DNA of 64,000 bases, taken from assembly GCF_003432035.1 (NCBI RefSeq), contig NZ_QOHO01000049.1:62001-126000 (forward strand), given 5' to 3'. A model generated the notes under the pieces. That model searched no databases, was not told where the DNA came from, and was given only the letters and a program-made list of their open reading frames with translations. Source of the DNA: Lacrimispora amygdalina (GTDB lineage: Bacteria > Bacillota > Clostridia > Lachnospirales > Lachnospiraceae). The position numbers and the translations under genes were made by a program. This document shows positions 28,357 through 31,375 of this stretch, in pieces (the stretch's first letter is position 1; each line of letters opens with the position of its first letter).

Positions 28357-29298
28357 ATGGTGAAAAAGATTTGTCCGGTCTGTGATCTTCCGGTTAACGA
28401 GGTGAATTATTGCCCCAGGTGCAGGCGGGTGGTGAAAAAGCCTGTAAGCTGGGAAGTGAATTATTTATTAAATGAAAAGAGAAACCAGCAGGCTATGCCG
28501 GCAGGGCTGCCTCAGGCTGGCAGACTGACTGTAAATCAGCCGGCGGCCAATCCTTCCGTAACTGGTAAAAGACAATCAAATACACTCCTGTTTATTTTGA
28601 TTTTGGCTTTTGCGATTGTCATTATGGCGGGGGTCATTTTCAGCTGTGCTGTTTATTCCGTCGCTTTTGATGAGGATGACTATGAGACAGCAACAGGATA
28701 CGACGATTATGGGTATCGTGATCTGGATGAAACAGAAGTAATTGCAGCAGGGGAACGATGCAGCGGGTTCGATCATTTTGAAGCCGATGGAAGAGGTATT
28801 GCGGATTCCATGGCCCAGTTTCTGGAAAAAGGCGATTATGGCTATCAGATCAGTTCTAATGAGACCTATTCTGATAACTATGAGATGAATGAGGACAGCG
28901 GCCCGGTCACTTATTATGAGACAGTGGAAAGCGTTTATTTAATACCGAATACAGCCGATGGGGAAAGTTCCGATGAGGAAGAGTATGAGTATGTGGACAT
29001 TAACTATGATACCGCAACCGGAGAACTGCACCGGTATGTGTCCTATCTGGGGAACCAGGAAGCTTCGCTGGCGTACTTGGAACAGTTTCTGATGCTTACA
29101 GAGGCGGCCTGCGGGATTCAGACAGAGCAAAGCAGTATCCCCTCAATTATGGAACAGGCACAGTCAAGGCTGAACCAGCAGGAAGGAGCCTATATCCTGG
29201 AAGGAATCTTTGATATCAATCTATATTTTTACGAGGACCGGATCCAGATTTATGTTTCCTATAACAATCCGGAAGCTGTTAAAAATCAGGAAACGTAA
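28357..29298 (+). CDS. Zinc-ribbon, single-pass membrane protein of unknown function
   Basis: This 313-residue protein starts with a clear zinc ribbon, CPVCDLPVNEVNYCPRCRR (two CxxC pairs, residues 6-22). A 45-residue linker and one transmembrane segment (about 73-98, LLFILILAFAIVIMAGVIFS) follow. The outside domain is strongly acidic and rich in Asp, Glu and Tyr (FDEDDYETATGYDDYGYRDLDE), then about 170 residues of likely beta-rich fold. No catalytic motif is evident. The cytoplasmic zinc ribbon plus extracellular domain resembles many Firmicutes envelope proteins of unknown role. AAGGGGA precedes ATG 28357. It probably belongs with the HTH-like gene upstream. Confidence 0.7.
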   Translation: MVKKICPVCDLPVNEVNYCPRCRRVVKKPVSWEVNYLLNEKRNQQAMPAGLPQAGRLTVNQPAANPSVTGKRQSNTLLFILILAFAIVIMAGVIFSCAVYSVAFDEDDYETATGYDDYGYRDLDETEVIAAGERCSGFDHFEADGRGIADSMAQFLEKGDYGYQISSNETYSDNYEMNEDSGPVTYYETVESVYLIPNTADGESSDEEEYEYVDINYDTATGELHRYVSYLGNQEASLAYLEQFLMLTEAACGIQTEQSSIPSIMEQAQSRLNQQEGAYILEGIFDINLYFYEDRIQIYVSYNNPEAVKNQET

Positions 29299-29314: not shown

Positions 29315-29343
29315 TTGACAGAACATAACCGATCTGATATAAT
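29315..29343 (+). promoter_or_regulatory. Consensus SigA promoter of the hflKC leader
   Basis: TTGACA (29315-29320), 17-bp spacer, TATAAT (29338-29343). Both boxes are perfect, which is expected when expression is limited later by a riboswitch. Confidence 0.92.
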
Positions 29344-29353
29344 TATTTCAATC

Positions 29354-29448
29354 GCAAAAGGGAGTAGCTTCCGCCGCAAGGCTGGATAAGCGTGCGTCAG
29401 AACGATAAAGAGATTTATCCGCATACTTATGAAATGTCAAGACTTTTA
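29354..29448 (+). ncRNA. yybP-ykoY family (manganese-sensing) riboswitch aptamer, candidate
   Basis: The leader begins GCAAAAGGGAGTAGC. This matches the start of the yybP-ykoY aptamer (AAAGGGGAGUAG), in which helix P1 is followed by the conserved GGAGUAG loop. P1 forms between AAAAG (29356-29360) and CTTTT (29443-29447). GTGCGTCAGAACG (29392-29404) corresponds to the second conserved loop (GUCGUCA..CG), and a GATAAA/TTTATC hairpin (29404-29419) follows. The segment ends CAAGACTTTT, matching the conserved CAAGACCUUU. In this family Mn2+ binding joins the two loops and stabilises P1. The call rests on motif order and spacing recalled from the family; a covariance search would settle it. Confidence 0.75.
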
Positions 29449-29483
29449 CAGATACCGTATGGTATCCGCAAAGGTCTTTTTTT
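29440..29483 (+). terminator. Riboswitch expression platform: terminator that competes with P1
   Basis: AGACTTTT (29440-29447) pairs with AAAGGTCT (29470-29477), with an inner GATACC/GGTATC hairpin, followed by seven T. Its 5' arm contains the 3' strand of aptamer helix P1, so ligand-bound aptamer and terminator exclude each other. That is an ON switch. Confidence 0.85.
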
Positions 29484-29531
29484 ATACTCTTTTTGCGAAA
29501 ACACACAAAAAAGAAAGAGAGGAATTGAATT

Positions 29532-30509
29532 ATGGAAACAGTTAACCCGAAAGGAACGGAGCAGTTGAAAAAAATCCGAAGGCTGATCCGGAAATCCGGA
29601 ATGGCGGTTTTGCTCGCGGTGGCAGTTCCTGTTATAGCATTTGGCTCTGTCTATAATGTACAGGAGCAGGAGCAGGCAGTAGTGACAACCTTAGGTATTC
29701 CCAGAACGGTTGCGGAGCCGGGACTTCATTTTAAGATCCCGTTCGTGCAAAATGTGCATAAGGTAAATACCACAATACAGGGTTTCGCTGTGGGCTATGA
29801 TCCAGGTAACAATGAAAGCAGGGAAGAGGATTCCCTGATGATCACGAAGGATTATAATTTTGTAAACGTGGATTTCTTTGTGGAATACAAAGTTTCTGAT
29901 CCGGTGAAGGCCATTTATGCTTCTAAGGACCCGCTGACAATTCTTCAGAATGTATCTAGAAGCAGTATCCGTACTGTCATCGGCAGTTATGACGTGGATT
30001 CGGTGCTGACCAATGGAAAAAACGAGATTCAGTCCAAAGTGAAGGAGATGATCACGGCTAAACTGGCGGAGCACAATGTGGGGCTTACTGTGATTAATGT
30101 TACCATACAGGATTCAGAACCTCCGACAAAAGAGGTAATGGAAGCGTTTAAGGCGGTGGAAACAGCCAAGCAGGGGAAAGAAACGGCGATTAATAATGCA
30201 AATAAGTACCGAAATGAAAAACTTCCCGAGGCAACTGCCCAGACCGATAAAATTCTTCAGGATGCGGAATCTTCCAAGGCGAAAAGAATTAACGAGGCCA
30301 GTGCAGAGGTGGCGAAATTCAATGCTATGTATCAGGAATATATAAAAAATCCGGAAGTGACAAAAAAACGAATGTTTTATGAAACGATGGAAGATGTTCT
30401 TCCAAATATGAAGGTGATTATTGACGGTACGGACCAGACCAGTACCATCCTCCCTCTTGACAGCTTTACAGGAGGAGAAACCAGTGAGAAAAAGGAGAAT
30501 AAGGAATGA
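29532..30509 (+). CDS. hflK: HflK-like SPFH/prohibitin-domain membrane protein
   Basis: This 325-residue protein has a short cytoplasmic start, one membrane segment (about 22-42, MAVLLAVAVPVIAFGS) and an SPFH domain (VQEQEQAVVTTLGIPRTVAEPGLHFKIP..). A coiled-coil region with many Ala, Lys and Glu residues (about 215-265) follows. In Proteobacteria HflK and HflC form a large cage around the FtsH protease and limit its access to membrane substrates. It pairs with hflC, whose start overlaps its stop (ATGA). GAGAGG precedes ATG 29532. Transcription passes through the candidate manganese riboswitch, which links this complex to metal status. No ftsH is adjacent. Confidence 0.85.
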   Translation: METVNPKGTEQLKKIRRLIRKSGMAVLLAVAVPVIAFGSVYNVQEQEQAVVTTLGIPRTVAEPGLHFKIPFVQNVHKVNTTIQGFAVGYDPGNNESREEDSLMITKDYNFVNVDFFVEYKVSDPVKAIYASKDPLTILQNVSRSSIRTVIGSYDVDSVLTNGKNEIQSKVKEMITAKLAEHNVGLTVINVTIQDSEPPTKEVMEAFKAVETAKQGKETAINNANKYRNEKLPEATAQTDKILQDAESSKAKRINEASAEVAKFNAMYQEYIKNPEVTKKRMFYETMEDVLPNMKVIIDGTDQTSTILPLDSFTGGETSEKKENKE

Positions 30510-31375
30510 AAAAGATAAAAACAGCCATAGGGATACTGCTTGCAGCAGCAGCCGTAACGGTGCTTTCCGGTTCGGTGATAGTCACCAATGAAAATGAATA
30601 CAAGCTGATCCGGCAGTTTGGAAGGGTGGAACGGGTCATTGATTCACCGGGTATTTCTTTCAAGTTACCAATAATCCAGACGGCAGATACCATACCAAAG
30701 CAGATACTCATTTATGATCTGGCGGCGTCCGATGTAATTACAATGGATAAAAAAACAATGCTCAGTGACAGCTACGTGCTCTGGCGCATTGAAGATCCGC
30801 TGAAATTTGCCCAGTCTCTGAATTCTTCCGTTGTGGGAGCAGAGAGCAGAATTGATACCGTGGTTTATAACTCGGTAAAAAATGTGATCAGCAGTATGGC
30901 ACAGAATGAAGTGATCAGCAGCCGTGACGGCGAACTTTCACAGGCTATCATGGAAAATGTAGGCGATAATATGGGACAGTATGGAATTCGTCTTCTGGCG
31001 GTGGAAACAAAGCGTCTGGATCTTCCGGCAGACAACAAAACGGCCGTATATGAAAGAATGATCTCGGAGCGTGATAAGATCGCAGCTACATTTACGGCGG
31101 AAGGCCAGGCAGAGGCAAAAAAGATACAAAATACAACAGACCGTGAAATTGCCATCAGCATTTCTGATGCCCAGGCAAAGGCAGCTTCAATCACATCAGA
31201 GGGAGAAGGGGAATATATGAGAATTATGGCAGAAGCTTATCACGATCCTCAAAGATCGGAATTCTATTCCTTTGTACGGTCTTTAGAGGCTGCGAAAACG
31301 TCTCTTGCCGGAAATGGCAATACATTAATTCTTCCGGGAGGCTCTCCTCTGGCCAGGATATTTACGGGACAATAA
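30506..31375 (+). CDS. hflC: HflC-like SPFH/prohibitin-domain membrane protein
   Basis: This 289-residue partner of HflK has an N-terminal membrane anchor (about 5-22, TAIGILLAAAAVTVLSG) and an SPFH domain (VIVTNENEYKLIRQFGRVERVIDSPGISFKLP). A coiled-coil segment (ISERDKIAATFTAEGQAEAKKI), typical of HflC, and a short C-terminus follow. It overlaps hflK by four bases and so should be made in equal amount. The pair is predicted to form the membrane microdomain cage of the FtsH system. In a Gram-positive anaerobe the precise partner is not proven. Confidence 0.87.
   Translation: MKKIKTAIGILLAAAAVTVLSGSVIVTNENEYKLIRQFGRVERVIDSPGISFKLPIIQTADTIPKQILIYDLAASDVITMDKKTMLSDSYVLWRIEDPLKFAQSLNSSVVGAESRIDTVVYNSVKNVISSMAQNEVISSRDGELSQAIMENVGDNMGQYGIRLLAVETKRLDLPADNKTAVYERMISERDKIAATFTAEGQAEAKKIQNTTDREIAISISDAQAKAASITSEGEGEYMRIMAEAYHDPQRSEFYSFVRSLEAAKTSLAGNGNTLILPGGSPLARIFTGQ

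Follow-up and report, generated by a model that had tools for sequence, protein, structure and literature searches.

RNAs of the yybP-ykoY class (Rfam RF00080) respond to Mn2+, and in Lactococcus lactis and Xanthomonas oryzae an invariant adenosine (A41 and A48, respectively) binds the metal through its N7, with the L. lactis L3 letters given as UCAAUUC (PMC6754395). In Streptococcus pneumoniae, mgtA is described as being under a Mn/Ca2+-sensing yybP-ykoY riboswitch (PMC11434433), and one review anticipates that some yybP variants have altered ion specificity (PMC7266159). Another RNA, SSRC10 (RF02617), lies in Streptococcus pyogenes before a gene for a putative calcium transporter and appears among small-RNA candidates (PMC3675131). 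HflK and HflC are SPFH proteins that modulate FtsH. SPFH cages occur across all life, and to our knowledge little has been established about what triggers them. Here we describe a leader RNA in front of hflK and hflC in a stretch of 64,000 nucleotides from Lacrimispora amygdalina (contig NZ_QOHO01000049.1, positions 62,001 to 126,000 of the forward strand; hereafter the window). We consider it probable that this leader, which lacks helix P4, belongs to the yybP-ykoY (Mn2+) class and works as a transcriptional ON riboswitch, inducing hflKC with cation exporters at high metal. The class, the anatomy, the conservation and the gene links of the leader were computed.

Sequence comparison assigns the leader RNA to the yybP-ykoY (Mn2+) type in a form without P4, and we hold to this class despite the silence of RF00080 considered below, because a model of RF00080-recognized sequences and reciprocal matches connect the leader to exporter-linked members. 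The model, R3, is a covariance model of 21 sequences that RF00080 recognizes at E ≤ 0.1. In the window R3 returns the leader at E 3e-11 with a runner-up of 9.8 bits, a result to be read with the makeup of the model, in which the rows were aligned with a second model (R2, 70 rows including the window), eight of the 21 sequences were first found through R2, L020 and L022 come from the genus of the window, and L025, L026 and L027 match RF00080 over the P3 arm only. Across the whole genome R3 finds three sites. In the other direction, which makes the weaker of the two tests, R1, a covariance model of 16 hflKC leaders, was run unfiltered over 15 of the 16 loci derived from RF00080 (L031, a copy of L020, was left out). 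For 14 of these 15 loci its best match coincided with the place found by RF00080, with 12 at E ≤ 0.034 and 14 at E ≤ 0.15. Scores of these matches lay between 14.9 bits (E 0.15) and 44 bits (E 8e-10), and the one locus without an R1 match, L030, is itself matched weakly by RF00080. Genes behind the RF00080-derived loci include MntP, GDT1/UPF0016, a P-type ATPase and Na/Ca exchangers (Pfam on three). RF00080 at E ≤ 0.1 also recognizes eight of 20 phylum-wide R2 loci, tested out of 29 fetched, and SSRC10 recognizes another three.

An original prediction made from the letters of the window had claimed the motif order of a yybP-ykoY aptamer, and this order is present as AAAAGGGAGTAGC .. GCGTCAGAACG .. 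CAAGACTTTT at 29356-29447, with R3 recovering the claimed aptamer. A loose core pattern, composed after the sequence had been seen, has a single match in the window (29361-29447) and one match in 200 Markov-1 windows of 64 kb. Like the L. lactis yoaB leader, the window RNA has the L1 sequence GGAGUAGC, which is also in the RF00080 consensus, and an L3 with GUCA; the comparison with the full L. lactis aptamer was made by eye. With the class it shares the P2 and P3 arms, a P1 that would compete with a terminator and, elsewhere in its branch, exporter targets. It is unlike the class in that P4 is lacking, RF00080 does not match it and the target is hflKC.

The predicted aptamer is a three-way junction (Table 1) in which L3 is GUCAGAAC, facing a single C. 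We aligned the window with 69 survey hits, fitting the alignment to the structure, and found that 94.3% of cells were paired (96.3% for P1), with 396 two-sided changes versus 124 ± 11 in shuffles. Two-sided change occurs in 20 of the 27 pairs (17.1 ± 0.9 in shuffles) and sliding of the strands abolishes the covariation. A further helix outside the model, P1.2, starts at G29367-C29438 and covaries in relatives: among 124 sequences its two pairs are G-C/C-G in 86, A-U/C-G in 18, G-C/U-A in four, A-U/U-A in one and of wobble form in two, and it is broken in 13 (11 C-U and two G-A). Within the genus, AAAAGGGAGTAGC, TGCGTCA, CCGCAT and CAAGACTTTTA are common letter for letter to 16 aligned leaders, from which L013, a near-copy of L012, was omitted.

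The original prediction had placed the 3′ strand of P1 inside the 5′ arm of a terminator, the layout of an ON switch. The minimum free energy (MFE) fold of 29350-29486 (-37.5 kcal/mol, z -3.0, equalled by one in 200 shuffles) has the P1 3′ strand (29443-29447) within the terminator 5′ arm. Of 125 leaders (the 16 of the genus and 109 from the survey), 122 show the same overlap, versus 49 of 365 control sites, which are other places with the same start motif. When the full leader is folded without ligand the terminator prevails. P1 does not form in the MFE structure even when the aptamer is folded alone, and ligand would thus be required to reach the bound state. A consensus scan missed this terminator, mismatches in the stem being the probable cause. 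As modeled by folding, the leader has the anatomy of a transcriptional ON switch, and the proposed layout is borne out by the overlap in both sequence and fold.

A search of relatives for the leader before hflKC, also proposed at the outset, was done by BLAST and found it in 17 of 61 genomes (the source genome, 16 of 24 other genus members and none of 36 outside the genus), upstream of hflK in all 17. The pairing of hflKC with this leader is conserved and not a one-off. HflK occurs in 20 of the 25 genus genomes, 17 of which carry the leader, and in the other three (L286-L288) the HflK protein is 51-52% identical and neither R1 nor R2 matches upstream of the gene. Among the best 80 of 566 HflK relatives from named genomes, 29 loci have an R1 match just upstream on the same strand. 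Seven of these lie on contigs of known genus leaders, and the 29 include Lacrimispora xylanisolvens, Hungatella effluvii, H. hathewayi, Konateibacter massiliensis, Murimonas intestini and Blautia caecimuris.

The same RNA class stands before other genes. The three sites in the source genome precede hflKC, a calcium/sodium antiporter (TIGR00367 above its cut-off) and a P-type cation ATPase identified from sequence without a profile scan; the last (C87) was detected by R3 only. The claim that the leader controls HflK and HflC rather than an exporter was therefore too sharp, since the antiporter (C20) and the ATPase follow the same RNA class in the same genome. Exporter genes stand behind such sister sites and not behind the hflKC site itself. 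Because exporters in the genome share the RNA class, hflKC would seem to have joined a regulon for ion export. Taken as a whole, the original prediction stood in part, in its yybP-type aptamer, its ON-switch anatomy and its hflKC pairing, which is conserved, and gave way in its contrast with exporters.

With one genome per genus, R1 sites (E ≤ 0.1) occur in 87 of 299 family genomes. The survey has 118 rows by count, and 109 sites besides the window were examined, eight being omitted (G266, G205, G149, G074, G353:C84, G261, G134 and G131). Target labels come from BLAST clusters with Pfam on representatives only, and for L116 and L060 from the second open reading frame (ORF). On these labels, the 109 sites precede a Ca-type P-type ATPase (36), an unnamed family of about 150 aa (20), a Na/Ca exchanger (15), HflK/C-like SPFH genes (11), OAD_beta/GcdB (8), flotillin-like SPFH genes (4), CNNM/CorC (3), YccF directly (2), an unknown protein of 640-670 aa (2), single others (6) and nothing readable (2), so that SPFH genes follow 15 of 109. 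Of 295 genomes surveyed from the order, 141 carry an R2 match at E ≤ 0.01, and of 299 from the phylum, 83 do. From these, 54 loci (L227-L280) were labeled, two of which could not be oriented, with L231 and L254 repeating family-survey sites. The remaining 52 comprise 24 P-type ATPases, nine Na/Ca exchangers, five GcdB, four GDT1-like genes, two members of the 150-aa family, one each of HflK-type, flotillin-type and citrate-transporter-like genes and five unlabeled genes, among which a further scan gave TerC (L276) and LemA (L262). TerC is the ykoY family. Models built from the hflKC leaders and from related sites thus place RNAs of this kind upstream of MntP, GDT1, TerC, P-type ATPase and Na/Ca-exchanger genes. 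In relatives of the source genome, a KUP potassium transporter follows a site that has AUCA for GUCA (L281, labeled by Pfam; L284 and L289, similar to it in sequence), and L282 and L283 hold R2 matches.

For the ligand, both the L1 letters GGAGUA and the invariant L3 adenosine are present, and by sequence A29399 would occupy the place of the Mn2+-contacting A41 of L. lactis. An L3 of GUCA plus four letters is found in 78 of 122 parsed sites (16 of them genus leaders), and the window L3 (GUCA + GAAC) has the layout of 26 of 35 parsed sites linked to P-type ATPases. By analogy, Mn2+ is our best guess for the ligand of the hflKC leader, because it has the core of the Mn class and some ATPase-linked and flotillin-linked relatives match SSRC10. 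Members linked to P-type ATPases are also of the type for which Mn/Ca sensing is described in S. pneumoniae (PMC11434433). L3 is shorter by one base (GUCA or GACA plus three; for example L054 and L093) at 15 of the 20 sites before the 150-aa family, at both direct YccF sites and at three of 11 SPFH sites. GUCU, with U in place of the Mn-contacting A, occurs at L071:2501-2601 and L081:2501-2621, both before the 150-aa family, and a change of ligand there is possible.

For the ligand, the direction of the response in cells and the purpose, we infer the following. Without ligand, the 3′ strand of P1 would pair into the terminator and transcription would end near 29483. Mn2+ or a similar divalent ion would dock L1 onto L3 and so hold P1, and a held P1 would block the terminator and allow hflK-hflC expression. 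The hflKC switch would then act in a small regulon alongside the antiporter and P-type ATPase switches of the same genome, with high cell metal inducing the SPFH cage together with the exporters. The cage would most likely serve membrane protection or remodelling, and a part for FtsH is speculation.

Several results weigh against this reading. RF00080, whose silence the original prediction had named as refuting it, gave no match in the 64-kb window at gathering score and none at E ≤ 10 in the 251-nt leader or the whole genome. Twenty loci from close relatives were likewise without a match at E ≤ 0.1. We regard this silence as weak evidence, because the RF00080 consensus, as seen in alignments to three matched loci, has no P1 pairs and carries an L3 of the UCAACAUACUUGG kind. 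For the same reason, and since R3 recovers the site, the argument that the leader is not of yybP type was rejected. Among 14 named control genomes RF00080 matched nine and exceeded its cut-off in two, and L. lactis was matched in this search and not in the stricter one. P4, part of the four-way junction of the crystal structure, is replaced by the 7-nt linker. By eye, L020, L022 and L024 also lack the P4 hairpin and L019, L021 and L023 have one; since P4 varies among these RF00080-recognized members, we did not take it as defining. The spacing from P3.2 to L1 could be parsed automatically in 88 of 109 survey sites and is 16-24 nt in 82, too short for P4, and longer in six (one of which, L134, shows by eye a hairpin at the P4 place), so most but not all of the branch lacks P4. 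The second P1.2 pair is broken to C-U in the subclade of the window (11 leaders), a form carried by the ten leaders L001-L010, the window leader included. Covariation is slight within the 16 genus leaders, with 95.2% of cells paired and three two-sided pairs versus 1.3 in shuffles, as many being reached by 34 of 500 shuffles. Folded by itself, the aptamer (29350-29449) has P3 in its MFE structure and neither P1 nor P2 as modeled. In the HflK survey, 51 of the best 80 loci have no R1 match, and R2 adds one partial match among these (L193, 24 bits, cut by the contig end). HflK matches at E ≤ 1e-30 occur in 101 of 299 family genomes and an R1 site lies beside it, by coordinates, in only 11 of the 101, so most HflK genes of the family have no detected site. 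The branch targets KUP, GcdB and YccF are not known manganese genes. Finally, the review PMC11477304 terms Mn2+ riboswitches OFF switches, against the ON reading, and PMC9190785 terms the L. lactis Mn2+ riboswitch an ON switch.

The explanation that we keep as the main rival, although we think it unlikely, is a yybP-type aptamer with shifted specificity that would sense another divalent ion such as Ca2+, or a mixture of metal and alkaline pH, and switch hflKC and ion transporters under envelope or ion stress. It is kept because the mixed targets fit the ion variants expected for yybP: the branch abounds in Ca-type ATPases and Na/Ca exchangers, with GcdB, CNNM, SPFH and YccF beside them and KUP in relatives, and the S. 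pneumoniae relative is called Mn/Ca2+-sensing. The U-for-A sites and the shorter L3 of the 150-aa family would also suit such a shift. The L3 of the window, however, keeps the adenosine and has the length seen at most ATPase-linked sites; the L3 letters of L. lactis are UCAAUUC.

We regard it as quite improbable that the leader is conserved but not gated by a ligand, as an attenuator or stability element derived from a yybP riboswitch that lost binding in the subclade. The broken P1.2 pair and missing P4 of the window clade, the silence of RF00080 and the missing P1 in the MFE fold of the isolated aptamer could be taken this way, but the 16 aligned genus leaders show no variation in L1, in the L3 GUCA or on the 3′ side, beyond the needs of a bare terminator, and the overlap of P1 with the terminator is kept. 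That the leader belongs to another known riboswitch class, or is unrelated to yybP-ykoY and like it by chance, we consider very improbable: no Rfam family reaches gathering score in the window, but the R3 score with its distant runner-up, the two-way recognition with RF00080 and the rarity of the core pattern in random windows led us to reject a chance motif.

Based on these surveys we suggest, tentatively and at somewhat less than even confidence, that Lachnospiraceae and their neighbours hold a large branch of three-way-junction yybP-ykoY RNAs, mostly invisible to Rfam, that runs a regulon from cation load to membrane upkeep. Such a regulon would join Ca2+/Mn2+ ATPases, Na+/Ca2+ antiporters and CNNM with HflK-HflC, flotillin-like SPFH genes, YccF and the 150-aa family, and sub-branches with the shorter L3 or with U for A would have moved to a different ion. 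The target genes point to a tie between metal load and membrane upkeep. This union of cation exporters with membrane-scaffold genes (SPFH, YccF and the unnamed 150-aa family) is to us the most interesting part. A metal-type riboswitch before hflKC, flotillin-like and YccF genes would give a direct, testable signal for SPFH proteins and sets them beside cation exporters. Additionally, RF00080 misses a common branch of riboswitch in gut bacteria, and genes of unassigned function that lie under it, such as the 150-aa family with YccF, can therefore be linked to metal or ion stress.

In the open-licence literature we found nothing that pairs yybP-ykoY with hflC or a Mn2+ riboswitch with Lachnospiraceae. 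Papers on riboswitches and HflK, judged by titles and the start of abstracts, include none on such a leader, and among the matches listed none joins manganese or yybP with SPFH, flotillin, YccF or LemA, though published target lists of the class could hold SPFH genes. As far as this limited open literature shows, the SPFH/YccF side of the regulon and the P4-less branch overlooked by Rfam are new.

Table 1. Features of the hflKC leader and operon in the window
Feature	Position	Strand	Evidence or remark
Sigma-A type promoter TTGACA-N17-TATAAT	29315..29343	+	12/12 consensus positions; TG precedes -10
Predicted yybP-ykoY-type aptamer, three-way junction without P4, 99 nt	29352..29450	+	R3 55.1 bits, E 3e-11; R1 115.6 bits (same leader sits in R1 training set)
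P1 (switch helix), 5′ strand AAAAG	29356..29360	+	Partner CTTTT 29443-29447; alignment A2
L1 5′ side GGAGTAGC	29361..29368	+	Invariant in 16 aligned genus leaders
P2 hairpin, GCAA loop	29371..29385	+	All 5 pairs changed on both sides (70 sequences)
P3 arm	29386..29430	+	P3.1 29386-29396/29420-29430, L3, P3.2 29404-29409/29414-29419, GNRA loop
L3 5′ side GTCAGAAC	29396..29403	+	Sequence; A29399 inside
Linker GAAATGT, place of P4	29431..29437	+	7 nt, joins P3 to L1
L1 3′ side CAAGA and P1 3′ strand CTTTT	29438..29447	+	P1 strand common with terminator
Intrinsic terminator that would compete with P1	29439..29483	+	Stem 29439-29478, T-run to 29483 (MFE)
hflK (SPFH/Band_7)	29532..30509	+	Pfam Band_7 E 2e-32; TIGR01933 235 bits, cut-off 159
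hflC (SPFH/Band_7)	30506..31375	+	Pfam Band_7 E 3e-27; TIGR01932 158.6 bits, cut-off 134.4

The promoter had been called perfect, and it agrees with the consensus throughout (Table 1); transcription is expected from its position to start near 29350, giving a leader of about 180 nt before hflK. The start of hflC overlaps the stop of hflK. Both proteins score above the NCBIfam equivalog cut-offs, in common with the known HflK-HflC pair. The locus is unlike the known pair in its metal-type riboswitch upstream, and the partnership with FtsH is putative here. An ORF upstream of the promoter (28357-29298, 313 aa) has, by eye, a zinc-ribbon-like N-terminus followed by a membrane segment. A Pfam scan of it found no match, and 16 of the 17 genus loci retain it ahead of the leader.

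A search of the leader against Rfam at E ≤ 10 returned two miRNA families, two snoRNA families and one sRNA family, all five far under their cut-offs. SSRC10, titled 'Streptococcus sRNA 10', overlaps yybP-type riboswitches at L052, L055, L252, L267 and L279. In relatives of the window RNA its model falls on the corresponding position (L052 43.2 bits, L055 33.4 bits and L267 67.8 bits, above cut-off); unlike the window RNA, SSRC10 precedes a cation transporter gene, and its model has no match in the window. SSRC10 probably corresponds to the Mn/Ca riboswitch leader of the streptococcal P-type ATPase MgtA/CaxP in its terminated form, and RF02617 may be a misnamed riboswitch leader.

The unnamed family under the riboswitch (L038, L041, L054 and 17 other loci) has 138-178 aa and, in most members, the motifs WGxxDMLGGG .. 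KHSK .. FADFFFDG. The members scanned have no match in Pfam (L038) or NCBIfam (L038 and L054), and YccF is the next gene in 13 of the 20 loci. Beyond the order, LemA follows the riboswitch at L262 (by Pfam) and, by eye, at L270 and L271, with a TPM-domain gene next in L270. These targets are again membrane proteins of unclear role.

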